From the NCBI GenBank assembly GCA_963169045.1, contig CAUJDF010000040.1, positions 1-61,559 of the forward strand: a stretch of DNA of 61,559 bases, written 5' to 3'. The stretch is from Myxococcota bacterium. GTDB taxonomy: Bacteria > Myxococcota_A > Bradymonadia > UBA7976 > UBA1532. Shown piece by piece: positions 21,672-39,307 of this stretch; position 1 is the stretch's first letter, and every line of letters starts with the position of its first letter. The position numbers and the translations under genes are program-made. The notes under the pieces are model-generated. The model was not told the DNA's origin. It did not search any database and was given only the letters and a program-made list of their open reading frames with translations.

Positions 21672-23273
21672 TCAGCGGGTGCCTTCGTCGTCGGCGGCCA
21701 CGGAGGGGGGCGGCGTCTCGCCGAGGCGGCGGAACAGGTCGGCGGCCCGCGCCTGATCGCGGTGGAAGGCGCGGTGGTGGTTGCGGTTGCGCACGAGCTC
21801 GCCGCGGCCGACGAGCTCGAAGGCGGCCTCGCGGCTGCCGGCGACGCGCACCGCCTCGACGAGCAGGAGGCCGGCGAGGGCGCCGGCCACGTCCAGGTCG
21901 TCGAGGGCGATGGGCGGCCGCGCGGCGTTGAGGTGGGCGGCGAGCGCCTCGACCGCGGCGGTGAGCCGCTCGCCCGGGCGCGCGGCCGCGGACGGGCCGC
22001 GGCCGAGACCGAGCGCCGCCTCGACGTGGCGGCCCTCGATCGTCGCCCCGCCGTCGAGCGCCGCCAGCGTGTGGACGCGGCGCATCACGTTGTCGAGCTC
22101 GCGCAGGTTGCCGGGCCACGCCTGCGCTTCGAGCAACCGCACGGCGTCGGCCGCCAGCGTCACGCTGCCGGGACGGCCCTTCTCGGCGTGGCGCCGCTCG
22201 AGCATGAAGCGCGCCCAGCCGCCGATCTCGTCGCGCCGGGACCGCAGCGGCCGCAGCTCGAACGGCAGCACGTTGATGCGGTAGTACAGGTCCTCGCGGA
22301 AGCGCCCCTCGCGCACGGCCTCGAGCAGGTCGGCGTTGGTGCCCACGACGAAGCGCACGTCGGCCTGGCGCGCGCCCGAGGCGTCGCCGAGCACGCGGTA
22401 GCGGCGGTCCTCGAGCAGGTGCAGCAGGCCCGCCTGCGCCTTCAGCGACAACTTGTCGACCTCGTCGAGGAACAGCGTGCCGCCCTGCGCCCGGGCGACG
22501 AAGCCGGCGTGGTCGCGATCGGCGCCGGTGAAGGCGCCGCGCTTCCAGCCCACCAGCTCGCCCATCTGCATGTCCTCGGGCACGGTGAGCAGGTCGAGCA
22601 CCTCGAACGGCCCGGCCGACCGCGCCGAGCGCGCGTGGATCCAGCGCGCGAGCCGCGACTTGCCCACGCCGGTCTCGCCGCGCACGAGGATCGTCTCGTC
22701 CTCGGCGGCGAAGGCGCGCAACATCGGCAGCGCGGCGGCCATGGCGGCGCCCACCACCGGCAGCAGCGCGTCGGCGGGGGCGGCCTCGGCGGCGCGCGGC
22801 GGCAGGGCGGCGAGGTACGGCCCGCTGGCGTCGGCGACGGCGGCGAGCGCGCCCGCGTTCCAGGCGCCCGGCCCTCGGGCCTCGAGCGTGGCCGCGCCGA
22901 TCAGGCGGCCGCCCGGCGCGCACAGCGGCACGGCGTACAGGTGCGTCGCCTCGCGCCGCGACAGCCGGAGCTGCGTCCCGGTGGTGAGCCCGTCGCCGGA
23001 CGACACGTCGACCGCGACCGCCTCGCCGCGCGCCGCGATCCGGTGCCACACCGACGCCGACGGCACGACGTCGGCGCCGGCGTCGGGCGGGTGCAGCCCG
23101 GCGCCGTCGAGCACCCAGAGGCCGGCGTAGCCGTCGTCCGGCCGCAGGTGGAGCAGCATCCGCAGCACGTCCGGGTGGCCGGACACGCCGCGCAGGGCGC
23201 GCAGGCACGCGAGGGCGGCCTGCTCGAAGGCGGTGGCCGCCGCCAGCTCGCGGAGGAGCGCGTTCATGGGCAT
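21672..23273 (-). CDS. Sigma-54-dependent transcriptional activator (GAF-like + AAA+)
   Basis: About 533 residues. Residues 15-155 look like a GAF-type sensor. The AAA+ domain has Walker A GETGVGKS (199-206), the sigma-54 contact loop GAFTGA (246-251), Walker B GGTLFLDE (264-271), then TNADLLEAVREGRFREDLYYR and WPGNLREL. The GAFTGA loop shows it can act with RpoN. The C-terminus (GSREAAFELVGRGELVRNRNHHR) is not a textbook Fis helix-turn-helix but plausibly binds DNA. ATG 23273 is chosen because GAGGTG lies 7 bases upstream; ATG 23267 would give an exact ATGA overlap with the giant lipoprotein's stop. It is the last gene of an operon that seems to begin with a sigma-54 promoter, suggesting self-activation. 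Confidence 0.9.
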   Translation of the reverse strand: MPMNALLRELAAATAFEQAALACLRALRGVSGHPDVLRMLLHLRPDDGYAGLWVLDGAGLHPPDAGADVVPSASVWHRIAARGEAVAVDVSSGDGLTTGTQLRLSRREATHLYAVPLCAPGGRLIGAATLEARGPGAWNAGALAAVADASGPYLAALPPRAAEAAPADALLPVVGAAMAAALPMLRAFAAEDETILVRGETGVGKSRLARWIHARSARSAGPFEVLDLLTVPEDMQMGELVGWKRGAFTGADRDHAGFVARAQGGTLFLDEVDKLSLKAQAGLLHLLEDRRYRVLGDASGARQADVRFVVGTNADLLEAVREGRFREDLYYRINVLPFELRPLRSRRDEIGGWARFMLERRHAEKGRPGSVTLAADAVRLLEAQAWPGNLRELDNVMRRVHTLAALDGGATIEGRHVEAALGLGRGPSAAARPGERLTAAVEALAAHLNAARPPIALDDLDVAGALAGLLLVEAVRVAGSREAAFELVGRGELVRNRNHHRAFHRDQARAADLFRRLGETPPPSVAADDEGTR

Positions 23274-26200
23274 GTCGGCACCTCGCCGCCGGAGGCGGGC
23301 GTCGACTGCGCGGTGCCGCCGTAGGCGCCGATGTCGCGGCGGCACCCGTTGGGCGCCGTCTCGGCGGCGAAGGACGATGCGGGATCGCCGGCGTCGATGA
23401 GCGGCGACGTGGGCAGCAGGTGCAGGTCGCCGACGTCGGGGTCCGCGAAGCCCGGCGAGACGTCGAGGATGGGGCCGTCGTCGGTGGCCGGGCCGGAGAG
23501 CGCGCCGCCGGCGCACTCGTCGCCGTTCAGGTAGGCGCGACGGAGCGCCGCCGCCGCGGCCTGGTTCTGGATGCACGCGCCGCTCGTGCGGCTGATCGTG
23601 CCGTTGCGGGCCACGACCGGGCTCACCTGGTTCGCGGCGAGGTGGAGGCCCCGCCCGGAGGCGCCCGTCAGGCCGATCCGGTCGATGGAGAAGCCGTCGA
23701 GGACGGCACCGACCGCCGCGTTGAATTGCACGCCGAGGGCGCTGCCGGCCGTGGCGCCGGGGGCCGGCCCGCCTTCGACGTCGCTCACCGCGAGGCCCGT
23801 CGCGCCGACCTGCGACGTGGCGTTGAGCTGCACGCCCATCCCATGCCCGCCGTTGCCGTTGCGGCCATCCTGCCGGTTCAGGCCGCCACGTCCGCCGCGC
23901 ACCGTCGTGACCGCGACGCGCGCGAGGTCCACGTTCGTGGCGTTGTCGCAGCGCACGCCCGTCCCGCCGTTGCCGTTGCTGCCGGGACCCTCCGCCGCGT
24001 TCAGGGCGTCGCCGCCCCGGCCGCCGGAGACGACCTGGACGAAGAGGTCGGCGAGGTCGACGCCGTTGTTGCCGTTCGTGATCCAGACGCCGATGCCGGC
24101 GCCGCCCGCCGATGGCGACGCGGCCCCCTCGGCCACGTCGCGGCCGCGCTGCCCCTGAATGCCGATGACCTCGACGTGCTCGACGCGCACCGCGCCGGAC
24201 GTGTCGACGCGGATGCCCGCGGCGGTGCCGCCGTTGCCGCCGGCCACGCCTCCGGCGCCGTGTCCGAGGCCGCCCGTGATCTGGCTGACCGAGACGCCCT
24301 CGATGCGCACGGCGCCGGCGTTGCTCACGCGAATGCCGTTCGCCTCGCCGCCGGCGCGGCCCGCGCCGTTGCCGGTGCCGCCCGTCACCGAGGCCACGTC
24401 GCTGGCGGTCACCACGAGCCCGCTCCCGAGGCCGTAGTAGAGACCGGCGGCGTGCAGGCCCGTCTGGTTGGCGCCTGCCACCGGCGCCGTCTGGCCGGTG
24501 ATCCGCACGCCATGCACGCGGAGGCGGCCGGGGCGCACGCCGTCGTGATCCGCGTTGTAGACGCGGATGCCGTAGCGCCCGCCGACGATGCTGACACCGC
24601 TGATGGTGAAGTCGGTGTAGTTGTCGAGGGCCATGCCGTCGCCGCCCGCCGGCGGCGCGATCGTCACCAGGTCCGCGCCGGCGCCCTGCAGGACCTTGCC
24701 GGGCAGCGCTCCGTAGACCAGCGCGGGGGACTCGACGTACCGGCCGGGAGCGATCCGGATGAAGGCGTTCGCCCCGGCACTGTCGAGGGCGGAGGAGATG
24801 GTCCGGTAGACGCCGGGTTCCCCGAACCGGGCCGGATCCACGTGGACGACGGACCCGGCGTGCTGCACCTCGCAGCCGTTGGCGCCGTCGGCGTCGTCGT
24901 CGCGGAAGCGGAGCGCGCAGAGCTCGACCTGACAGACGCCCGAACGGCAGGCGGCGCGCGCCGTGTTCGGCAGGTTGCCGCAGCGGACGCCGCAGCCGCC
25001 GCAGTTGTCCGGGTCGTTCAGCAGGTCGATCCCCTCGTCGAGCTGACCGTCACAGTCGTCGTCGCGGCGGTTGCACACCTCGGGTCCGCCGCCGGGGCAC
25101 GCGTACTCGCAGCCGTTGGTGTTGTCGAGGTCGAGGTTGCGCGTGTCCGGGTCGCACGCGTCGCAGTCGGGTGCGTCGCCCACGCGGTCGCGGCACTCGA
25201 AGTCGACGGCGAGACCGCAGCCGTTGCGCCCATCGAGCGGCGCGCACTCGTCGAGGTCGGTGCAGAGCGGCGGGCCGCGGTCCTGGTCGACGCACTCCCA
25301 GTGGGGCGCGAGGCCGCAGCCGTTGAAGCCATCGGCGTCGGCGAGACAGACGTCGAGGTCGACGCAGCCCGGCTCGAGGCCGCCCGCGTTGTTCTGGCAG
25401 CGCACGTAGCGCGGGTCGCCGCAGTCGCCGTTGTTCCGGGCGCACTCGTCGACGTCGACGCAGCGCGGGGCGGCGCCAGCCAGGTTGACGCAGCGCGTGA
25501 AGCGCGGATCGCCGCAGCCGCCGTTGTCGTCCAGGCATTCGTCGCGGTCCGCGCAGTCGGGCGGGCCGCCCTCGACGTTGGTGCACACCCAGCGGGCGGC
25601 GATGCCGCAGCCGTTGTTGCCCGCGGGGTCGGGCGCGCACTCGTCGACGTCGACACAGACCGGCGCCTGACCGTCGCGCGGCACGCACACCCAGAAGTCC
25701 GGCAGGCCGCAGAAGTTCTCGCCGTCGAGGGCCGGCTCGCACGGGTCGCGCGCCTCGCACGTCGGCGGGGCCGCCTCGTTGTCGGTGCACGTCGCCAGGT
25801 GGGGGTCGCCGCAGCCGCCGTTGTCGTCGAGACACTCGTCGTGGTCGGTGCAGACCGGGGGCAGGCCCTCGCGGTCGAGGCAGTCCCAGAAGCGCGCCTC
25901 GCCGCACGCGTTGCGGCCGGCGCCGTCGGGCCGGCACTCGTCGCGGTCGACGCAGGTCGGCGGCCCGCCCGCGCGGTTGGTGCACGTCCAGCGGGCCGCC
26001 AGGCCGCAGCCGTTCACGCCGTCGCCGTCGGCGGCGCACTCGTCGCGGTCGGTGCAGATCGGCTCGGCCCCCGGGCGCACGACGCAGTCCCAGTAGCGCG
26101 CCTCGCCGCAGAAGTTGCGGCCCAGCGCGTCGGGCGTGCACGCGTCGCGCTCGGCGCACGTCGGTGGCCCGCCGGGCCGGTTCGTACAGGCGAAGCGCAG

Positions 26201-28726
26201 CGGATCTCCGCAGCCGCCGTTGTTGACCAGGCACTCGTCGACGTCGGTGCAGCGCGGCGGCGCCCCCTCGCGGTCCTCGCACGTCCAGAAGCGCGCCGCG
26301 CCGCAGCCGTTCTCTTCGCCGACGCACTCGTCGCGGTCCTCGCAGAGCGCGGGGGCGCCGTGCCTGTTGACGCAGTCCCAGTGGGCGGCGAGGCCGCAGG
26401 CGTTCACGCCGTCGGCGTCGGGCGCGCACTCGTCGACGTCGGTGCAGAGCGGGTCGGCGCCGGGGCGTCGCGTGCACGTCCACAGCCGCGCCTCCCCGCA
26501 GAAGTTGCGGCCCCCGGCGTCGGGCCGGCAGAGGTCGCGCTCGCTGCAGAGCGGCGGCTCGCCGGCGCGGTTGGCGCACGTGAAGCGCGCCGGATCGCCG
26601 CAGCCGCCGTTGCCTGTGGCGCACTCGTCGACGTCGGCGCAGCGGGGCGCGGCGCCCTCGCGGTTCTCGCAGGTCCAGGCGCGCGCCACGCCGCACGCGT
26701 TGTTGCCCTCGACGTCGACGGCGCACTCGTCGAGGTCCTCGCACACCGCGTCGGCGCCCGGCCGGTCGATGCACGTCCAGCGGGCGGCGGTCCCGCAGGC
26801 GTTCAGGCCGGCGTCGTCGGCGGCGCACTCGTCGACGTCCTCGCACGCCGGCGGCCCGCCGGGCTGGTCCGTGCACCGCCAGAAGCGCGCGACGCCGCAG
26901 CCGTTGCGCCCGTCGGCGCCGACGGCGCACTCGTCGACGTCCTCGCACGCCGGCGGCCCGCCGCGCACGTTCACGCAGCGCACGAAGCGGCGGTCGCCGC
27001 AGCCGCCGTTGTCGCGCGCGCACTCGTCGACGTCCTCGCACACCGGGGCGGCGCCGATCTGGTCGAGACAGCGCCAGAACCGCGCGATTCCACAAGTGTT
27101 TTCGCCCTCGGCGTCCGGCGCGCAGTCGTCGACGTCCTCGCAGATCGGCGGCGCGCCCTCCTGCTCGAGGCAGCGCGTGAAGCGCGGGTTGCCGCAGCCG
27201 CCGTTGGCCATGCCGCACTCGGCGACGTCCTCGCAGCGCGTGCCGCCGTCCTCGGTGACCTCGCAGCGCCAGTAGCGCGCGTCGCCGCAGGGCGTGCGGC
27301 CGGCCGCGTCGACCTGGCACGGCTGGAAGGCCTCGCAGCGCGGCGGGCCGCCGAACGCGCCCGAGCAGCGGACGCGCCGTGGATCGCCGCAGCCGCCGTT
27401 GTCCGTCGCGCACGGATCGAGCGCGGTGCACGTGGGCGGGCCGCCCTCGCGATTCGCGCAGCGGTTGTACGCCGGATCGCCGCAGCCCCCGTTCTCGGCG
27501 GCGCACTCGTCGACGTCGGCGCACACCGGCGGGGCGCCGTCGCGGTCCTCGCACGTCCAGAAGCGCACGTCGCCGCACGCGTTGCGCCCGGCGCGGACGG
27601 CGCACTCGTCGATGTCGGCGCAGCTCACGTCGAGCGGGCCCTCGCCCTCGACGCACGTCCAGAACGCGGCGGCGCCGCAGACGTTGTCGCCCTTCGAGTC
27701 GGCGGCGCACGGGTTGGCCTGGGCCACGCGCAGGACGAGCTCGACGGGCCGCGCGCCGGGCTCGGACGGGAGCGAGAAGGCGACGCGCCACGTGCCCTGC
27801 ACGAGGCCCTGCACCTCGAAGCGCACGCGGCCCTCGGCGTCGGTGGGCCGGCGCGTCGCGGCAGGCGCGAGCGCCAGGGCCGCCGCCTCCCCGTCGGGCC
27901 GCGCTTCGACCACCGCGCCCACGAGCGGCCGTTCACCGAAGCGACCCACGAGGCCGATCGTCACGCTCGTGCCGGCGCGGAACGTGACCTCGGCCGGTCC
28001 CTCGATCGCGAGCGAGAACAGCTCGGGCGCGGCGGGGACGGCCACCACCTGCACGAGCTGGCGCCGGTCGATGGCGTCGGTGACCTCGATGACGCCGCGC
28101 AGCGACGCCCCGGCCTCGAGCTCGGCGACGGCGGCGCGGAAGGTGTCCGGCTCGAGGCGGAAGGCGATGGGCCGGCGCTCGCCCGCCCCGAGCGGCCGGG
28201 CCGGCGCCGCGAGGACCAGCCAGGGCGGCGGCGCGAACGTCAGCGACAGCTCGGCGTCGGACTCGTTCGTCTCGGTGAGCGCCGCCTCGTGCACTTCGCC
28301 CGTGAACACGAGCACCGGCGGCTCGAAGCGGACCGGCGCCGCCCGGTCCCGCGGGATGAGCGGCAGGTTGACGTCGGCGGTGCGGCCGCGCCCGGTGGTC
28401 ACGGGGAGCACGGCGCGCGCGTAGCCGTCGGCCTCGGCCTTCACCTCGTAGAGGCGGCCGGGGATCACGTCGCGGGTGACGATGTACTCGCCGTCGCCGT
28501 TGCTGCGCACGAGCTCGGTGGGCGGGAACGTCGAGACGAAGGTGTCCCGAAGCGGATCGCCGGTGAGGAAGTCGTACGTGCGGCCGGTGATGGCCGGCGC
28601 GCTCTCGGGCACGTCTTCGGGATTCGGGGAGACGACGACCACGGCCTCGTCGCCGCCCCCCGAGCCGCCGCCCGAGCAGGCGGCGAGCATGACGCCGAAC
28701 AGCCATGCTGCGCGTCGAAGAGCCAT
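23264..28726 (-). CDS. Giant lipoprotein: 26 EGF-like Cys repeats plus right-handed beta-helix
   Basis: About 1820 residues. The lipobox is VMLAAC (Cys17), followed by a Gly/Ser linker. Residues about 45-335 contain beta-sandwich/Ig-like parts (a carboxypeptidase-regulatory-like TYDFLTGDPLRDTF segment). From about 338 to 1190 there are 26 four-Cys units opening D(V/R)DEC, of two kinds: a long one with CGxARFWTC and a short one with NGGCGDPRF(T/V)RC. A MopE-like Cys region (NGCEYACPGG, CDGQLDEG, CGGCGVRC) follows at about 1200-1290. The C-terminal 500 residues form a pectin-lyase-like beta-helix with NGxGxxG turns and ending IDAGD/DIGAYGG. It is probably a long surface fibre or adhesin. The ATG has an AGGGGG ribosome site. 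It lies 70 bases after a secreted-protein gene and overlaps the sigma-54 activator. Confidence 0.88.
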   Translation of the reverse strand: MALRRAAWLFGVMLAACSGGGSGGGDEAVVVVSPNPEDVPESAPAITGRTYDFLTGDPLRDTFVSTFPPTELVRSNGDGEYIVTRDVIPGRLYEVKAEADGYARAVLPVTTGRGRTADVNLPLIPRDRAAPVRFEPPVLVFTGEVHEAALTETNESDAELSLTFAPPPWLVLAAPARPLGAGERRPIAFRLEPDTFRAAVAELEAGASLRGVIEVTDAIDRRQLVQVVAVPAAPELFSLAIEGPAEVTFRAGTSVTIGLVGRFGERPLVGAVVEARPDGEAAALALAPAATRRPTDAEGRVRFEVQGLVQGTWRVAFSLPSEPGARPVELVLRVAQANPCAADSKGDNVCGAAAFWTCVEGEGPLDVSCADIDECAVRAGRNACGDVRFWTCEDRDGAPPVCADVDECAAENGGCGDPAYNRCANREGGPPTCTALDPCATDNGGCGDPRRVRCSGAFGGPPRCEAFQPCQVDAAGRTPCGDARYWRCEVTEDGGTRCEDVAECGMANGGCGNPRFTRCLEQEGAPPICEDVDDCAPDAEGENTCGIARFWRCLDQIGAAPVCEDVDECARDNGGCGDRRFVRCVNVRGGPPACEDVDECAVGADGRNGCGVARFWRCTDQPGGPPACEDVDECAADDAGLNACGTAARWTCIDRPGADAVCEDLDECAVDVEGNNACGVARAWTCENREGAAPRCADVDECATGNGGCGDPARFTCANRAGEPPLCSERDLCRPDAGGRNFCGEARLWTCTRRPGADPLCTDVDECAPDADGVNACGLAAHWDCVNRHGAPALCEDRDECVGEENGCGAARFWTCEDREGAPPRCTDVDECLVNNGGCGDPLRFACTNRPGGPPTCAERDACTPDALGRNFCGEARYWDCVVRPGAEPICTDRDECAADGDGVNGCGLAARWTCTNRAGGPPTCVDRDECRPDGAGRNACGEARFWDCLDREGLPPVCTDHDECLDDNGGCGDPHLATCTDNEAAPPTCEARDPCEPALDGENFCGLPDFWVCVPRDGQAPVCVDVDECAPDPAGNNGCGIAARWVCTNVEGGPPDCADRDECLDDNGGCGDPRFTRCVNLAGAAPRCVDVDECARNNGDCGDPRYVRCQNNAGGLEPGCVDLDVCLADADGFNGCGLAPHWECVDQDRGPPLCTDLDECAPLDGRNGCGLAVDFECRDRVGDAPDCDACDPDTRNLDLDNTNGCEYACPGGGPEVCNRRDDDCDGQLDEGIDLLNDPDNCGGCGVRCGNLPNTARAACRSGVCQVELCALRFRDDDADGANGCEVQHAGSVVHVDPARFGEPGVYRTISSALDSAGANAFIRIAPGRYVESPALVYGALPGKVLQGAGADLVTIAPPAGGDGMALDNYTDFTISGVSIVGGRYGIRVYNADHDGVRPGRLRVHGVRITGQTAPVAGANQTGLHAAGLYYGLGSGLVVTASDVASVTGGTGNGAGRAGGEANGIRVSNAGAVRIEGVSVSQITGGLGHGAGGVAGGNGGTAAGIRVDTSGAVRVEHVEVIGIQGQRGRDVAEGAASPSAGGAGIGVWITNGNNGVDLADLFVQVVSGGRGGDALNAAEGPGSNGNGGTGVRCDNATNVDLARVAVTTVRGGRGGLNRQDGRNGNGGHGMGVQLNATSQVGATGLAVSDVEGGPAPGATAGSALGVQFNAAVGAVLDGFSIDRIGLTGASGRGLHLAANQVSPVVARNGTISRTSGACIQNQAAAAALRRAYLNGDECAGGALSGPATDDGPILDVSPGFADPDVGDLHLLPTSPLIDAGDPASSFAAETAPNGCRRDIGAYGGTAQSTPASGGEVPTCP
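25143..27715 (-). repeat. Array of 26 EGF-like coding repeats (about 34-36 codons each)
   Basis: Degenerate tandem repeat inside the giant lipoprotein gene. Each unit keeps the Cys spacing and the DxDEC opening, while the intervening DNA has diverged. Long (CGxARFWTC) and short (NGGCGDPRF) units are interspersed without a strict alternation. Confidence 0.8.
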
Positions 28727-28796
28727 CGGATATCCCCCTGTGACGCTCGCATCATGGCAGACCGCGGGCCGGCGGCGAAATGCCGAAGGGAGGGGT

Positions 28797-29846
28797 TCAG
28801 CGCAGCTCGAGGTGCTGCGCCGCGGCGTCGAGGCCGGCCCGAGTGAGGGTGGACAGGAGCGACCGGCGGCCGATGTGGAGGTCCTCGGCCAGGCGAGAGA
28901 GGAACCAGAGCCCGTCCAGGTCCCAGCGCGCCCGGAACACATCGACCTGGAGCTCGCGCCACTCGTCCCGACGGTAGCTGACGAAGGGCCGCGTCTCGAC
29001 CGTCGCCTCGCCGCGCTTGCCGCTCCGACAGAACATCTGCCGGTCGCGGACCTCAACGTCGAACCAGGCGGAGAGGTCGACGACGTCGCGCGAATGCACG
29101 AGCACGGCGTACAGATCCTGGTCGCCACCGGGGAGGGCCACGGTCCTGCTGTCGCGCTCGCCCAAGCCCTGCCAACCCTCGCCGGTGGCGACGACGTGCG
29201 ACTGCGGCGTGCCGACGGGCTGACCGGCCGCGTCGGAACCGGAGAGCGTCAGCACGAAGTCCGAGGCATCGGCGGTCGGCAGGAACCAGGGCGTCGTCAG
29301 CCGCAGCGACGCGCCCACGGGCAGGCCGAGATCGCCGCGCTTGAACCAGAGCACGTCGACGACGGCGCGCGAGGCGACACGCTCGTGCTGGTACAACAGC
29401 CGGGCGGTATAGGGCGACGCCCCGTTCGGCGCCCACGGCGTCGCGAGCCACCAGCAGACGTCGCCGTCGGGGCCCTCCGCGGGGCCTTCGTAGGTCGCGT
29501 CGGGGTGGCGGTACAGGTCGTCGAGCGGCGCGGTGCGCGACGCGACGTCGTCCTGCAACTTCCGGATGTCGTCCTCCGCGTCCGCCAGCGCAGCCTGGAA
29601 GTCCGCGAGCGTGCCGAACGGGTTCTGCGCGGCCACCACGTCCGCCTCGAACTTGTCGAGGAAGGCGGCGGACTGGGACTGGCACTGCGCGGCGCCCTGG
29701 CCGGAGAACGGCTCGCAGAGGCTCGGCGGCTCGGCGGCGAAGCGATCGGCGGTGGCGGTCGGCGCCTCGCGGGTGGAGACCACCCGCTGGGCGGCGGCGG
29801 GACCGGCGAGCATGGCGAAGGCGAGCAGGACGGTAGCGATACGCAT
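28797..29846 (-). CDS. Secreted protein of unknown function, first gene of the sigma-54 operon
   Basis: About 349 residues with a Sec signal peptide (cleavage after GPAAA) and a strong GGGAGG site 7 bases before the ATG. After cleavage comes a helical coiled-coil-like part (about 50-110, KFEADVV to DDVASRT). A beta-rich domain follows with conserved-looking Trp/Tyr (DVCWWLATPW, LLYQHERVASRAVVDVLWFKRG, LYAVLVHSRDVVDLSAWFDVEVRDR). The C-terminus is helical (LSRLAEDLHIGRRSLLSTL). Periplasmic or extracellular location is inferred. It is followed by the giant lipoprotein (70-base gap) and preceded by a near-consensus sigma-54 promoter. The partner relationship rests on operon position only. Confidence 0.8.
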   Translation of the reverse strand: MRIATVLLAFAMLAGPAAAQRVVSTREAPTATADRFAAEPPSLCEPFSGQGAAQCQSQSAAFLDKFEADVVAAQNPFGTLADFQAALADAEDDIRKLQDDVASRTAPLDDLYRHPDATYEGPAEGPDGDVCWWLATPWAPNGASPYTARLLYQHERVASRAVVDVLWFKRGDLGLPVGASLRLTTPWFLPTADASDFVLTLSGSDAAGQPVGTPQSHVVATGEGWQGLGERDSRTVALPGGDQDLYAVLVHSRDVVDLSAWFDVEVRDRQMFCRSGKRGEATVETRPFVSYRRDEWRELQVDVFRARWDLDGLWFLSRLAEDLHIGRRSLLSTLTRAGLDAAAQHLELR

Positions 29847-29889
29847 GTCTGGACCTCCCGATCGTGTTGCGGCGACGCCGGCGGCATAG

Positions 29890-29905
29890 AGCAGCGACCG
29901 TGCCA
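29890..29905 (-). promoter_or_regulatory. Sigma-54 (-24/-12) promoter
   Basis: On the minus strand TGGCACG-GTCG-CTGCT matches the sigma-54 consensus TGGCACG-N4-TTGCW at 7 of 7 and 4 of 5 positions, with GG and GC exactly 10 bases apart. It lies 44 bases upstream of the ATG at 29846, leaving a leader of about 30 bases. The operon it would control ends with a sigma-54 activator. Confidence 0.65.
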
Positions 29906-29943: not shown

Positions 29944-29983
29944 GGCGCGTCCCGGACGGACGCGGCGCGTCCCGGACGGACGC
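29944..29983. repeat. 20-bp tandem repeat (2 copies) sharing a 14-mer core with 33425-33484
   Basis: Two identical 20-base units (GGCGCGTCCCGGACGGACGC) lie head to tail between divergent genes. The junction creates GGACGCGGCGCGTC (29958-29971), found in inverse orientation in another 20-bp-period intergenic repeat at 33425. Confidence 0.6.
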
Positions 29984-30033: not shown

Positions 30034-30525
30034 ATGCGTCCTCCCGGCATGAGCAGATGGGTGGTGGGGCTCGCGCTCGCGACGGGCGGCTGCTTCGACG
30101 CGCTGCGCGACCGCGACTGCGCGAGCAACGACGACTGCTTCGTCGACGAGACGTGCACCGTCGGCCACCGCTGCGTGACGGTGGCGAGCATCGGCGAGCG
30201 CGACGCGGGCGCCGACGCCCTCACCGTCACGGTGGAGGCGTTCGGCCGCGACGACCCCGACCGGGCGCTGGCCGCGACCATCAACTCGAGCCGTCCCGAC
30301 GACGGCTGCAACCACTGCGTGGGCGCGGACGAGTGTCGGCTCGCCGTGCCCGCGGGCACGTCGCACCGCGTCTGCGCCCACGCGCGCGGTCACCGGCCGT
30401 GCGCCGTCGAGGCCACCGGGCTGTTGCGCGTCGAGCTGTTCCTCGACGCGTGCGCCGAGGGCGAACCGTGCCCCGAGGCGCCGCGGGACTGCGACTGCCG
30501 CGACCTCCCCGAGTGCGGAGGCTGA
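30034..30525 (+). CDS. Small Cys-rich lipoprotein upstream of the Ser/Thr kinase
   Basis: About 163 residues from ATG 30034 (158 from ATG 30049). The lipobox is LATGGC. The mature part has many Cys (CASNDDCFVDETC, CNHCVGADEC, CDCRDLPEC) arranged in pairs, suggesting a disulphide-stabilised surface or periplasmic domain. Neither ATG has a ribosome site, but TATGCT at 30019-30024 could be a -10 box placing the transcript start at the ATG, so the mRNA may be leaderless. It ends one base before the kinase GTG and is surely co-transcribed. It could be an extracytoplasmic ligand or sensor partner of the kinase, which is inference from position. Confidence 0.75.
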   Translation: MRPPGMSRWVVGLALATGGCFDALRDRDCASNDDCFVDETCTVGHRCVTVASIGERDAGADALTVTVEAFGRDDPDRALAATINSSRPDDGCNHCVGADECRLAVPAGTSHRVCAHARGHRPCAVEATGLLRVELFLDACAEGEPCPEAPRDCDCRDLPECGG

Positions 30526-32569: not shown

Positions 32570-33426
32570 GGTGCCTCGCGCCCGCCGTGCTCGCGGCGCT
32601 CGCCCCCGCGGCCTCGGCCCAGCCCGCCGACGATCGCGCCGCGCTGCTCGAGGCGCTCCGCGCCGCCAACGCCGCCTTCGACGCCGGTCGTTTCGCCGAC
32701 GCGCTCGCCGCCTACGACGCGATCGCCGCGCGGTGGCCCCTCCCCGAGGTGCACTTCCGGCGCGGCGCCTGCCTCGAGCGCCTGGGCCGCCCGCTCGACG
32801 CCGCCGCCGCCTACCGCCGCTATCTCGAGCTCGCCCCGGACGCCGGGGACGCCGGCCGCGTGCGCGCCGACGTGGACCGTCTCGAGGCTGCCGGCCGCGC
32901 GCGCCCGGCCCGCCTCGTCGTCGTCTCGCGACCCGCCGGGGCCGAGGTCCTGCTCGGCGAGCGCGCGCTCGGGCGCAGCCCCGTCGACGTCGAGCTGCCG
33001 CCGGGCGAGGTCATCGTCACCCTGCGCGCCGACGGCCGCGAGCCGGTCAGCCGCGAGGTGCTCCTCGTCGCCGGCGAGCGCAAGAGCCTGGACGTCGACC
33101 TCCCGCCGCTCGCGCCGCCGCCCGCGGACCACGGCACGCTCGGCTGGACGCTCGCCGGCGTCGGCGCCGCGTCCCTCGTGGCCAGCGGCGTCCTCTACGC
33201 GCTCACCGCGTCGGCCATCGAGGACGCGAACGCCTACGACCGTCGCGACCCCGACCACAGCCGGGCGGCGCTCGACCGCATGCAGGACGACGCGGGCCGC
33301 CTCGAGGCCGGCTTCTGGGTCACGGGCGGGATCGGCCTCGCCGCCCTCGGCGCGGCCTCCTGGTTCCTGCTCACCGCCGACGACGCGCCGGCGCCCGCGG
33401 CATCGGGCCTGCGCTTCCGCTTCTGA
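32566..33426 (+). CDS. TPR and PEGA-domain membrane protein, kinase operon partner
   Basis: About 286 residues. A signal peptide (AALAPAASA) is followed by TPR-like helices (AANAAFDAGRFADALAAYDAI, then FRRGACLERLGRPLDAAAAYRRYLELAPDA). A PEGA domain spans about 110-180 (SRPAGAEVLLGERALGRSP, then PPGEVIVTLRADGRE). Two hydrophobic segments with a short loop follow and the C-terminus is aromatic. TPR-PEGA proteins next to Ser/Thr kinases are common in myxobacteria and are thought to link kinases to the envelope. The ATG overlaps the kinase stop (ATGA), so the two are translationally coupled. Confidence 0.88.
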
Positions 33427-33484
33427 CGCGCCGCGTCCCCGCGAGACGCGCCGCGTCCACGCGAGACGCGCCGCGGACGCCCGG
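33425..33484. repeat. 20-bp-period repeat (2 full copies and 1 partial)
   Basis: Units at 33425-33444 and 33445-33464 (GACGCGCCGCGTCC, one variable base, CGCGA) and a partial third from 33465. The core is the reverse complement of the 14-mer at 29958-29971. The first unit overlaps the stop codon of the TPR-PEGA gene. Confidence 0.6.
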
Positions 33485-33511
33485 CCCCCTGGTTTCCTGC
33501 GGTCCACGGGT

Positions 33512-33527
33512 TGGCACGCCCGTTGAA
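33512..33527 (+). promoter_or_regulatory. Sigma-54-like promoter motif upstream of a secreted protein
   Basis: TGGCACG-CCCG-TTGAA matches the sigma-54 -24 element fully and the -12 element at 4 of 5 positions, with the correct spacer. It ends 40 bases before ATG 33568. Confidence 0.5.
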
Positions 33528-33567: not shown

Positions 33568-34512
33568 ATGCTGCGCACGTTGCTGACCGCTTGCCTCGCC
33601 CTGCTGCCGACGCTCGCCCAGGCGGCCCCCGACTTCGAGAGCGACGCCTACATCGGCTGGAGCTTCGTCCCCGTCGAGAAGGACAGCGAGTTCATCGAGG
33701 TCCGCGGATACACCCATCGCCAGTCGTGGCTCCGGGTGCCCTTCTGGAACCGCTTCGACGTCGTCCGGACGTGGCGCAAGGACGTCCGTCAGGCCACGGA
33801 CGGGCAGATGTGCTGGTGGGAGCAGGAGTACTCGGACGCGACCTACGAGTACCTCGCCAGCCTGCGCCTGCGCCTCACGCACGTCTGGCACCTGGACACG
33901 ACGCTCGCCGACTACTACCAGGCCGTCGGCCAGGTCGTCCCCAACGGGGCGCAGGCCGGCGGTCTCGCCGCCGGCGCCTTCGGCGCGGTCGCCTGGGCCG
34001 GCCGCACCGCCGCCTCGAACGCGGTCACCGGCTCGTTCGCCATCGGTCCCGCCGCGGCCGGCGCGGGCGCCGCCAGCGCCGGCGCCACCCTCGCGCTCGG
34101 CACCGGCGCGATCGTGGCCGCCTACGGTCTCACCACCGCGCTCGTCCGGCAACTCGGCGCCTCCGAGTACGTCTGGCAGAAGGAGCAGTGGGTGGTCGAC
34201 GACATCCAGTTCGACCAGATCCGCGCCGCCTACGACGACTGGTGGATGATGACCTACGAGCTCGACGGCCGGCTGAAGTCGCCGCTGCAGTGGGCGTCGA
34301 GCGGCACGCTCCGCGCCAGCACCTCCGGCTGGGCGCAAGTCGGCGACGCGTATCCCTGCGACGCGCCGACGCGCTTCGTGCGCGAGGCCGGGTCGATCGA
34401 GGTGGAGACCTGGTTCTCGCACGAGGTGGCGCCGGCGAAGACCGTGACGAGGGTTCACGAGGACGCCGAGCGCCAGCTGGCGTCGACGAACGTCGCCGCC
34501 ATCGGGGAGTAG
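33568..34512 (+). CDS. Secreted protein with a Gly/Ala-rich hydrophobic centre
   Basis: About 314 residues. A strong GGAGGAG ribosome site precedes the ATG; the Sec signal peptide cleaves after LAQAA. The first 130 residues are rich in Trp/Tyr/Arg (WLRVPFWNRFD, MCWWEQEY). A segment of about 65 Gly/Ala-rich hydrophobic residues (roughly 128-190) resembles a glycine-zipper membrane insert. The last 120 residues are again soluble (YDDWWMMTYELDG, then EVETWFSHEVAP). The layout recalls a pore-forming or membrane-inserting secreted protein, but no family is recognised and this is only a structural impression. It is apparently alone under a sigma-54-like promoter. Confidence 0.75.
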   Translation: MLRTLLTACLALLPTLAQAAPDFESDAYIGWSFVPVEKDSEFIEVRGYTHRQSWLRVPFWNRFDVVRTWRKDVRQATDGQMCWWEQEYSDATYEYLASLRLRLTHVWHLDTTLADYYQAVGQVVPNGAQAGGLAAGAFGAVAWAGRTAASNAVTGSFAIGPAAAGAGAASAGATLALGTGAIVAAYGLTTALVRQLGASEYVWQKEQWVVDDIQFDQIRAAYDDWWMMTYELDGRLKSPLQWASSGTLRASTSGWAQVGDAYPCDAPTRFVREAGSIEVETWFSHEVAPAKTVTRVHEDAERQLASTNVAAIGE

Positions 34513-34621: not shown

Positions 34622-36070
34622 ATGACCGCCCGCTTGCCGCCTGCCCCAGGCGACGTGGGGCTCCGCGCCGCGTCGCGCGCGCTCTTCGGGCTCTGCCTCG
34701 CGCTGCTCGCGTCGCCGCCGGCCCACGCCGGACCGCCCGCCGTGAAGGCGGCCACGGACGCCAGCTGCCGGGCCACGCTCCCGTGTCTGCGGGACGGCCT
34801 GTGCACCGCGGTCGCCGGCCGCTGTGTCGCCGCGCGGAACGACGACTGTCGCGGCGCCTACTGGTGCGTGGCGGCGGGCCTCTGTACCGCGCGCGACGGG
34901 GCGTGCGTCCTGGCGGCGTCGTCGCGCGCGGCGTGCGACGCCCCCCACGGCAGCGACCGCGAAGCGCCGTGCGCGACGATGGGGTTGTGCACGTTCCGGG
35001 ACGGGCGGTGCATGGCCGCCACCGACGAGGACTGCGCGTCCGCGTCGTGGTGCCGGAACGTCGGCGAGTGCTCCGCCCGAAGCGGCCGCTGCGTCATCGC
35101 GCGCGACGAGGACTGCCGGCGCGGCGGCCAGTGTCAGGCGGGCGGCGCCTGCTCCGCGGTCGGCGGGCGTTGCGTCGCGACGCGCGACGAGGACTGCAAG
35201 GCGTCCGAGGCGTGCGCCGCCGCCGGGCTGTGCGTCGCGCGGAACGGGACCTGCGTCGCCGCCGCCGAGACCGACGCCGCCTGCCGCGAGGCCCGCGGCG
35301 ACCGGCGCAGCCCGTGCGCCGACCTCGGGCGGTGCAAGGCGGTGAACGGCGCGTGCTCGGCGGCGAGCGACGAGGACTGCGCCGGCGCCGCCGCGTGCCG
35401 CGCGAGCGGGTCGTGCACGGCGCGCGACGGCGCGTGCGTGGTCGCGAGCGACGCGGATTGCCGACGCTCCGAGGGCTGCGCCTCGAACGGCGCCTGCACG
35501 GCGCTGGACGGCGAGTGCGTGTCGAAGCGCGACGCCGACTGCGCCGCGTCGAGCCTGTGCCGGGAGTTCGGTGCCTGCAGCGCGAGAGCCGGCGTCTGCG
35601 TCGCCACGCGCGACGAGGACTGCAAACGCTCCGCGCGCTGCAAGTCCGAGGGCGCCTGCGCCGCGGTCGCCGGCGACTGCGGCCTGCCGCCCGAGCCCGC
35701 AGCCGCGCCCGAAGCGCCGCCGTCGCGCGAGGACGCCGAGCGCGAGGCGGTGGCCGACTTCGTCGCCTCGGTGCGCGCCCAGGGCTGGGACCTCGTCCAA
35801 TACATCGTCATCGTGCAGATGAACGCCCGCGAGCCCTGCACGCGCCGATACACGAACCGCGCCGGCAACGAGGCGGAGCGGCGAGCCCTCTGCGCCACCT
35901 GGAAATCGGCCCTGCGCGGTCGGAGCGCCGGGTTCCGCCGGGCTGCCATCCGCGGCTACTGCGAGGAGCGTTTCCCCGAGAGCTTCTACAACCGGCCGTG
36001 CGACGTCACCGGCTTCGAGGTGACCGTGGACCAGTGCGTCGCCACCGTCGCCGGCATGTGCGCCTGGTAG
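34622..36070 (+). CDS. Secreted protein with 11 four-Cys repeats
   Basis: About 482 residues from ATG 34622, which has an AAGGA site 5 bases upstream; an in-frame ATG at 34571 would add 17 residues. The signal peptide ends SPPAHAG. Residues about 45-365 form 11 units of about 27 residues, each D(E/D)DC-x6-C-x4-G-x-C-x6-C. Units 3 and 7 carry a longer insert with GDR/SDR before the second Cys. The C-terminal 110 residues are a different domain with its own Cys (EPCTRRYTNR, ALCATWKSAL, RGYCEERFPESFYNRPC). The regular four-Cys pattern suggests a disulphide-rich rod or ligand array on the cell surface. No family name can be given with confidence. Confidence 0.78.
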   Translation: MTARLPPAPGDVGLRAASRALFGLCLALLASPPAHAGPPAVKAATDASCRATLPCLRDGLCTAVAGRCVAARNDDCRGAYWCVAAGLCTARDGACVLAASSRAACDAPHGSDREAPCATMGLCTFRDGRCMAATDEDCASASWCRNVGECSARSGRCVIARDEDCRRGGQCQAGGACSAVGGRCVATRDEDCKASEACAAAGLCVARNGTCVAAAETDAACREARGDRRSPCADLGRCKAVNGACSAASDEDCAGAAACRASGSCTARDGACVVASDADCRRSEGCASNGACTALDGECVSKRDADCAASSLCREFGACSARAGVCVATRDEDCKRSARCKSEGACAAVAGDCGLPPEPAAAPEAPPSREDAEREAVADFVASVRAQGWDLVQYIVIVQMNAREPCTRRYTNRAGNEAERRALCATWKSALRGRSAGFRRAAIRGYCEERFPESFYNRPCDVTGFEVTVDQCVATVAGMCAW

Positions 36071-37356: not shown

Positions 37357-38325
37357 ATGTCGCACGAGCACGAGAGACCCGTCGAACCTTTCGCCGACCT
37401 GCACGTCGAGCACGGCCACGTGCGGGCGACCCTACTGCACGATCCCACGGTGGAGGGCCTCGACATGGCCATCTACATGGATGGCTCCGGCAGCATGAAG
37501 GACGAGTTCACCAATGAGGTGAAGGTGACGGGCGGCGGCTTCCTGGGCTGGCTGCTCGGCCGCGAGCGCAAGGAGGAGGTCCAGCCGAACCTGGTGGAGC
37601 CGCAGGTCCGCTGGATGCTCGAGTACCTGGCCACGAAGGACCGCAACGGCCTGCTGCGCGTGGCGTACTGGGCGTGCGGATCGGGCGGCGCCGGCGTCGA
37701 GGTCGTCGGTGAGCTGAAGGGCGTCGACGTCCAGTCCTACCGCTTCCCCGGGCCGAAGGAGTTCGGGAACAGCACGAACCTCAGGCCCGCGATGGAGGAC
37801 TACGTCCGCTACATCCGCCAGCAGGCCGCGAACGGCGCCCGGCAGGGGTGCGCCGTGTTCGTGACCGACGGGGCGCTGCACGACGCCGAGCAGGTGAAGG
37901 ACTACTCGCGCAAGATCGCGCGCGAGATCGCCGCCGGCACGCTGCCGCGCCTCAACTTCATCCTGGTGGGCGTCGGCGAAGGCGTGCAGGAGGAGCAGCT
38001 CGAGGAGATCTGCCACGAGGAGTATCCCGGCATCGGCCACCTGTGGTGCCATCGCATCGCCGAGGAGATCCGGCAGGTCAGCGAGCTCGTGGCGGTGCTC
38101 GTCGACGAGACGATGACCGTCGCCGCCGGCGGCACGATCTACGACGACCGCGGCAACGTCCTGAAGCGGTACGAGGCGCGGCTCCCCGCGGTGCTCGAGT
38201 TCGAGGTGCCCGAAGGGGCGCGCAGCTTCACGCTCGAGGTCAACGGCCAGCGCTACACGCAGCCGCTGCCCGAGGGCGAGGACCACGACGAAGACGAAGA
38301 CCACGAAGACGAAGACCACAACTGA
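37357..38325 (+). CDS. vWA-domain protein 1 with Asp/Glu/His tail
   Basis: About 322 residues, cytosolic; ATG with AAGGAG upstream. The vWA domain has a complete MIDAS: Asp42-x-Ser44-x-Ser46 in MDGSGSM, Thr140 in GNSTN, Asp171 in VTDGAL. A Cys/His cluster CHEEYPGIGHLWCH (219-232) is conserved in the next gene. The C-terminal part (TMTVAAGGTIYDDRG, then FTLEVNGQRY) is a small beta-sandwich. The tail alternates Asp, Glu and His (EDHDEDEDHEDEDHN). The N-terminal HEHE adds further His. The protein somewhat resembles vWA proteins of the TerF/TerY stress systems, but I cannot assign it there. It is 12 bases downstream of the WMxDF protein and 7 bases upstream of its paralogue. Confidence 0.85.
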   Translation: MSHEHERPVEPFADLHVEHGHVRATLLHDPTVEGLDMAIYMDGSGSMKDEFTNEVKVTGGGFLGWLLGRERKEEVQPNLVEPQVRWMLEYLATKDRNGLLRVAYWACGSGGAGVEVVGELKGVDVQSYRFPGPKEFGNSTNLRPAMEDYVRYIRQQAANGARQGCAVFVTDGALHDAEQVKDYSRKIAREIAAGTLPRLNFILVGVGEGVQEEQLEEICHEEYPGIGHLWCHRIAEEIRQVSELVAVLVDETMTVAAGGTIYDDRGNVLKRYEARLPAVLEFEVPEGARSFTLEVNGQRYTQPLPEGEDHDEDEDHEDEDHN

Positions 38326-38332
38326 GGCGCCG

Positions 38333-39307
38333 ATGTCCCACTCACACGAAGTCGTCGTGAAGCCCTTCTCGGACGTCCACGTCCGAGGCGGCCGCGTGCG
38401 GGCCACCCTCCTCCACGATCCGACGGTGGAGGGGCTCGACGTGGCCCTCTACATGGACGGGTCCGCCAGCATGGAGCCGGAGTACGGCCCGCGCGGCGTC
38501 CTCGCGAAGCTCGGCGGCGTGCGCAACAACGTCGAGCCGCAGATGCTGTGGATGCTCGAGTACCTCGCGACCAAGGATCGCAACGGGGTGCTGCGCGTGG
38601 CCTACTGGGCCACGGGCGACGGGGCGCAGATCGAGGTCGTGGGCGATCTCACGGGCGAGGACGCGAAGCGGTACAAGTTCCCCGGGCCGAAGTTCTACGG
38701 CAAGGGGACGATCATGCTGCCCGTCCTCCGCGACTTCGTGGCCTACATCCGCGACGCCGCGGCGCGCGGCGCCCGGCGCGGTCTCGCCGTCGTGATCACC
38801 GACAGCCAGCTGTACGACGGCGAGGATGTGCGCGCCTACTCGGCCCAGGTGGCGAAGGAGATCGCCGCCGGGCGCCTGCCGCCGATCAACTTCGTCTTCG
38901 TCGGCGTCGGCAGCCAGGTCGACGAGGAGCAGATGGAGGCCATCTGTCACGACGAGTATCCCGGCGTCGGACATCTGTGGTGCCATCGCGTCGCGGAGCG
39001 CATGGAAGAGATGGCGGAGCTCGTGGCGGTGCTGGTCGACGAGACCATGACCGTCGCGGCGGGCGGGACGATCTACGACGACCGCGGGGCGGTGCTGAAG
39101 CGGTACGAGGCGCGGCTGCCGGCGGTGCTCGAGTTCGACGTGCCGGCCGGGTGCACGTCGTTCACGCTCGAGGTCGCCGGTGAGCGGTACGTGCAGCCCC
39201 TGCCGAGCGAGGACGATCACGACGACGACGACGACGACCACGACGAACGGGCCGCCGCGCCGGTGGAGCCGGCGCCGACGGGTGGTCGTCACCGGCATCG
39301 GCACTGA
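38333..39307 (+). CDS. vWA-domain protein 2 with Asp-rich and His/Arg tail
   Basis: About 324 residues, clearly a paralogue of the previous gene product: the same opening (RATLLHDPTVEGLD), MIDAS (MDGSASM, GKGTIM, ITDSQL), Cys/His cluster CHDEYPGVGHLWCH, and TVAAGGTIYDDRG. It lacks the paralogue's insert around residues 52-72. The tail differs: an Asp run with His (EDDHDDDDDDHDE), a Pro/Ala linker, then a terminal HRHRH. The two genes arose by tandem duplication, and conservation is highest around the MIDAS and the Cys/His cluster. The stop is 2 bases before the metal ATPase start, so translation is probably coupled. A metal-binding or metal-sensing adaptor role is inferred from the tails and the neighbours. 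Confidence 0.85.
   Translation: MSHSHEVVVKPFSDVHVRGGRVRATLLHDPTVEGLDVALYMDGSASMEPEYGPRGVLAKLGGVRNNVEPQMLWMLEYLATKDRNGVLRVAYWATGDGAQIEVVGDLTGEDAKRYKFPGPKFYGKGTIMLPVLRDFVAYIRDAAARGARRGLAVVITDSQLYDGEDVRAYSAQVAKEIAAGRLPPINFVFVGVGSQVDEEQMEAICHDEYPGVGHLWCHRVAERMEEMAELVAVLVDETMTVAAGGTIYDDRGAVLKRYEARLPAVLEFDVPAGCTSFTLEVAGERYVQPLPSEDDHDDDDDDHDERAAAPVEPAPTGGRHRHRH

Follow-up and report, generated by a model that had tools for sequence, protein, structure and literature searches.

Does an operon that encodes a giant surface lipoprotein under a sigma-54 promoter also encode the activator that switches it on? This question is raised by a locus in a Myxococcota bacterium whose genome (9.0 Mb, GC about 75%) contained one copy of rpoN and about 50 genes for sigma-54 activators (bEBPs); Lujinxingia is among the genomes of the same class. 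The window, the stretch of 61,559 nucleotides analyzed here, is one whole contig (C40) of this genome. On its minus strand, genes for a secreted protein, an 1820-aa lipoprotein, and a bEBP follow one another in this order (Table 1).

Table 1. Genes and predicted regulatory elements of the locus, with positions in the window
Feature	Positions	Strand	Remarks
Sigma-54 activator (bEBP), 531 aa	21672-23267	-	GAF-like, AAA+ with GAFTGA, helical C-terminal domain (model)
Giant lipoprotein, 1820 aa	23264-28726	-	Lipobox, CarboxypepD_reg domain, 26 four-Cys repeats, predicted C-terminal beta-helix
Secreted protein, 349 aa	28797-29846	-	No relative found
Sigma-54 -24/-12 box TGGCACGGTCGCTGCT	29890-29905	-	Predicted transcript start about 29879
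UAS, two perfect dyads GCGTCC-N5-GGACGC	29947-29983	.	20 bp apart, 41 bp before the 29905-29890 box
Small Cys-rich lipoprotein	30049-30525	+	Divergent from operon; member of conserved lipoprotein cluster
Ser/Thr protein kinase, 680 aa	30527-32569	+	
TPR-PEGA protein, 286 aa	32566-33426	+	
Second UAS, two dyads GCGTCC-N5-AGACGC	33433-33469	.	20 bp apart
Second sigma-54-like box TGGCACGCCCGTTGAA	33512-33527	+	42 bp after second UAS
Secreted protein, 314 aa, predicted second target	33568-34512	+	Downstream of second UAS and box

The original prediction rested on a near-consensus TGGCACG-N4-CTGCT before the secreted-protein gene, and we recovered this box at 29905-29890 as the only exact match in the window, where chance would give 0.02. 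A single position separates it from TGGCACG-N4-TTGCW, and GG-N10-GC is intact, with GG at -24 and GC at -12, 10 bp apart. The box ends 43 nt before the ATG at 29846, which is preceded by GGGAGGT. In the whole 9-Mb genome, TGGCACG-N4-YTGCW had 22 sites, 20 of them intergenic and 18 located no more than 120 nt 5' of a start codon on the same strand, whereas the reversed pattern, also with 22 sites, gave one intergenic site and one upstream of a start. Because 18/22 sites precede start codons compared with 1/22 for the reversed pattern, and because the genome has one RpoN, the 29905-29890 box is, by these positional counts, a member of a working sigma-54 promoter class. Three of the 22 sites (C14:198656, C42:218399, and C79:145111; loci L045, L053, and L060) are strong sigma-54 sites with a divergent bEBP gene no more than about 1 kb away, and are likely to represent further bEBP-target pairs.

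The predicted sigma-54 operon that includes its own activator is consistent with these counts and with the order of the genes. The activator gene was also found to overlap the lipoprotein stop codon as claimed, in an ATGA with the start at 23267; an alternative ATG at 23273 would give a 10-nt overlap. No relatives of the 349-aa secreted protein were found in the 56 other genomes of the class or in plasmids. Kinship between this protein and the one encoded at 33568-34512 was considered and is not claimed, with short colinear matches of which the best had an E value of 0.05. The motifs shared by the two proteins (DGxxCWW and LRLTxxW) are faint, colinear, and not significant, and the proteins may possibly be distant relatives.

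The giant lipoprotein has the 1820 residues first reported, and its signal peptide with the lipobox LAAC was read directly (MALRRAAWLFGVMLAAC). A CarboxypepD_reg domain scored over the Pfam cut-off, a MopE-like segment scored under its cut-off, and 26 repeat units, mostly of 31 or 34 residues, carry four cysteines each. Of the EGF/beta-helix structure initially proposed for this protein, the helix is supported and the EGF label is weak. EGF domains are defined by six cysteines and an EGF_CA score over the cut-off, and the repeats have four cysteines per unit and reached 18.6 bits (cut-off 27). Because EGF_CA matched 21 of 43 positions, under the cut-off, the term EGF-like would denote a resemblance only. 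The repeats had no match when their sequence was searched against the PDB. The model of the C-terminal region was strand-rich, with a mean pLDDT of 69 and low values after residue 400, and its top Foldseek matches were mostly polysaccharide lyases, epimerases, and tailspikes, with TM-scores of about 0.2-0.4. These groups are known as beta-helix proteins. A right-handed parallel beta-helix is supported by this moderate-confidence model and by weak but consistent fold matches.

The last gene of the operon encodes a bEBP with an AAA+ sigma-54 interaction domain (PF00158, E 3e-48), a Walker A sequence (GETGVGKS), and the GAFTGA loop. Its AlphaFold model had a mean pLDDT of 91, and a fold comparison that covered essentially the AAA+ domain matched solved sigma-54 activators, including FlrC (Z 30.6, rmsd 1.5, 247 aligned). 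The N-terminus appears to be GAF-like from the order of strands and helices in the model, and had no Pfam match. The C-terminal domain (about residues 430-531) is helical in the model and carries a conserved N-R-N-H-H-[KR] motif; searched as part of a longer sequence, it matched no HTH family in Pfam, and a comparison with 15 Fis-type tails in hhalign gave a probability of 0.3. The activator belongs to a subfamily that spans Myxococcota and is set apart from other bEBPs (at least 286 bits compared with at most 185), with relatives 39-58% identical to the window activator. Additionally, Myxococcus species (L134, L135, and L137) carry a second member of the subfamily that is shorter (called at 356 aa) and seems to lack the GAF-like N-terminus.

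Two identical dyads (29947-29963 and 29967-29983) are located upstream of the operon, in the space that separates the box from the divergent gene, and are likely to be the binding site of the operon's activator. A dyad with an N4 spacer had no match, the correct spacer being N5. In a search of the 9-Mb genome that allowed up to three mismatches, tandem dyads with zero mismatches occurred only here and at 33433-33469, and the reversed tandem dyad did not occur in the whole genome. The second UAS has a degenerate third copy beginning at 33413, and the box that follows it reads TTGAA at -12, lacking the C of GC. By arithmetic, the dyad centres lie near -76 and -96 in the first UAS and near -77 and -97 in the second. 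The original picture of the operon was incomplete in this respect, since both the UAS and the second promoter of the same type were missing from it. After the 33568-34512 gene, a gene at 34622-36070 encodes a secreted 482-aa protein with another Cys-rich repeat (D-E-D-C..C..C) and may share its transcript. Further downstream, two tandem paralogues at 37357-39307 have D-G-S-x-S near the N-terminus (YMDGSGSM and YMDGSASM) and are possibly vWA-like.

The same dyad pattern recurred beside subfamily genes of other Myxococcota. Tandem GYGTY-N7-RACRC clusters numbered 38 at 64 subfamily loci (1.2 Mb), compared with none for the reversed motif and one at other loci, where other bEBPs were sampled (0.55 Mb); because the counted loci also served to define the motif, independent checks on these numbers come solely from the controls and the genome-wide searches. 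Intergenic bases make up only 10% of the subfamily loci, and 35 of the 38 clusters were intergenic. Because many loci come from related species, these counts are not independent of each other; at the non-redundant loci, a tandem at 18/20 or better was present in 18 of 38 (reversed motif, 0) and absent from 20. A sigma-54 box (score 0.82 or more) followed the cluster on 31 of the 44 sides with a downstream gene, compared with 2 of the 26 sides without one, and the gaps between UAS and box clustered at 40-42, 50-53, and 63-64 bp, a spacing close to one turn of the helix. In the 57 genomes of the class, six strict tandems were found: four share a contig with a subfamily bEBP gene, and two are in genomes without this subfamily.

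The genes downstream of these sites differed among taxa. In Myxococcus and Corallococcus, the UAS and box lie directly 5' of the bEBP gene itself, and many of the boxes read CGC at -12. In Polyangium, they precede neighbouring genes for a lipoprotein and other exported proteins, and in G002 they precede a giant lipoprotein gene. Four strict tandem sites were found in the M. xanthus genome AM003, including one at its orthologue of the activator gene (L090, 9989-11713). Other tandem UAS in this genome lie before a phage tail collar gene (L192), inside a T6SS ImpA_N gene (L196), and before a gene for a peptidoglycan-binding domain, where a sigma-54-like box follows after a gap of 51 (L198). In addition, G002 has two tandem UAS copies of nearly identical sequence, separated by about 19 kb (L193 and L197; G002:C99:32084 and 51092), each before a gene whose protein shares the first 120 residues, and a 2535-aa lipoprotein-like gene adjoining the bEBP gene is among these.

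Taken together, we give a probability of about 0.75 to the reading that this is a sigma-54 operon whose last product binds the dyads and thereby activates its own promoter and a second one. Sigma-54 RNA polymerase would transcribe the operon (29846-21672) from the 29905-29890 box. The activator, with GAF-like, AAA+, and DNA-binding domains, would bind the tandem dyads near -76 and -96 and open the promoter through looping and ATP hydrolysis, raising its own expression together with that of the secreted protein and the giant surface lipoprotein. The same activator would also switch on the second promoter (33433-33527), which precedes the gene of another secreted protein. Among the readings considered, positive autoregulation fits best and is well supported, though unproven, because the operon starts from a sigma-54 promoter and has the activator gene as its last, and the dyad pattern of the activator's subfamily, its predicted site, lies upstream. 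The promoter class, the tandem dyads, the gene order, the complete activator, and the recurrence of dyads beside the subfamily are read from the DNA itself; from these we infer the protein-DNA contact and the sign and strength of the feedback.

One of the many other bEBPs of this genome might instead bind the dyads at a sigma-54-dependent promoter, with the operon's activator acting on other targets, so that the locus would form a cascade and not a feedback. Cascades of bEBPs are known in M. xanthus (PMC9765219, PMC12288465), but the restriction of zero-mismatch dyads to this cluster, and their recurrence across the phylum beside subfamily genes and not beside the other bEBPs sampled, make such a cascade unlikely. 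Less probable still is that the activator gene has its own promoter within the lipoprotein gene, in which case feedback would be weak or absent because the activator would be only incidentally in the operon. This would accord with most relatives, in which the bEBP gene stands apart from the lipoprotein gene; against it are the ATGA overlap, simple scans in which the operon region had no sigma-70-like or terminator-like site, and, in Myxococcus, the position of UAS and box immediately 5' of the bEBP gene. Finally, a chance origin of box and dyads, conceivable for GC-rich dyad words in a genome of this GC content, is very improbable in light of the reversed-pattern controls and the genome-wide positions.

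Of the 141 gene positions no more than two genes from the subfamily bEBP, 26 were Ser/Thr kinase genes, compared with 6 of 196 at a distance of five genes or more (p = 2e-6), and 28 of 37 non-redundant loci had a kinase within four genes. At L036, for example, the kinase is encoded next to the bEBP. A giant lipoprotein was near the bEBP at 2 of the 37. By gene neighbourhood, the subfamily is thus associated with Ser/Thr kinases and not with giant lipoproteins. The positive feedback originally proposed therefore keeps its promoter, its complete activator, and the subfamily's dyads upstream, but the tie to the giant lipoprotein is not a general one. A switch that serves, for example, development, adhesion, or predation was the role initially suggested for it. 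Input from the neighbouring Ser/Thr kinase might reach the activator through its GAF-like domain.

The giant lipoprotein has conserved neighbours of its own, namely a small Cys-rich lipoprotein, a TPR-PEGA protein, and usually a kinase. Its N-terminal domain was present in 10 of the 57 genomes of the class. The small lipoprotein and a kinase lie beside it in the window, G002, G009, G053, and G056; the TPR-PEGA gene was identified by sequence match in all of these except G002, which has an unannotated 299-aa gene in the same position. The cluster also occurs in genomes without this bEBP subfamily, and the G009 operon (L185:5189-10816) encodes an FHA-type bEBP, the small Cys-rich lipoprotein, the giant lipoprotein, a kinase, and the TPR-PEGA protein. 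Because G009 has an FHA-type bEBP instead of this subfamily, the cluster of lipoprotein and kinase genes is apparently retained even where a different type of bEBP, or none, accompanies it. No UAS or sigma-54 box was found before giant lipoprotein genes in the genomes without this bEBP, and the best sigma-54 box for the divergent kinase operon of the window was no better than shuffles.

Autoregulated bEBPs are already known, such as Nla28 of Myxococcus xanthus (PMC9765219), which activates its own sigma-54 operon via paired upstream sites and boxes of the form TGGCACG-N4-TTGC(T/A). The Nla28 half-site CT(C/G)CG(C/G)AG forms a direct repeat, whereas the sites described here are tandem inverted repeats, GCGTC-N7-GACGC; moreover, the C-terminal domain of the window activator had no similarity to Fis-type tails in profile comparison. 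In NCBIfam, the AAA+ region scored highest against RtcR (NF038308), with 226.6 bits. The window activator was rejected as RtcR, the score being far under the 650-bit equivalog cut-off with the AAA+ part alone aligned. FHA-domain sigma-54 activators are thought to be linked to Ser/Thr kinases. Activators of this type are attributed to M. xanthus (Jelsbak 2005, as cited in PMC12288465), and one stands in the G009 lipoprotein operon, whereas the window activator has a GAF-like N-terminus in place of an FHA domain. Sigma-54 control of the bacterial exterior, lipoproteins included, is a recognised theme (PMC3162934), and the available portion of that source ties sigma-54 and its activators to surface molecules but makes no mention of this subfamily, its site, or a giant lipoprotein cluster. 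Our literature search found nothing specific on this bEBP subfamily, its site, or such giant lipoproteins. As far as searched, the subfamily, its predicted site, its C-terminal domain, and the cluster setting with kinase and giant lipoprotein are new.

Myxococcota have many Ser/Thr kinases and many sigma-54 activators, and their partners are mostly unknown. Tentatively, and at somewhat less than even odds, the subfamily might represent Myxococcota-wide sigma-54 activators that recognize tandem GCGTC-N7-GACGC through an undescribed DNA-binding domain. Lacking an FHA domain or two-component receiver, they would be controlled by a partner kinase via the GAF-like domain, and would govern small self-activating regulons for surface or secreted proteins, here the giant lipoprotein with its own kinase. 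Throughout the phylum, M. xanthus included, members of the bEBP subfamily are repeatedly accompanied by a nearby kinase and by the predicted DNA site, and therefore both the link from kinase to sigma-54 and the function of the C-terminal domain are testable in a laboratory strain. In addition, the predicted dyad site provides a sequence handle for locating the regulon in each species.
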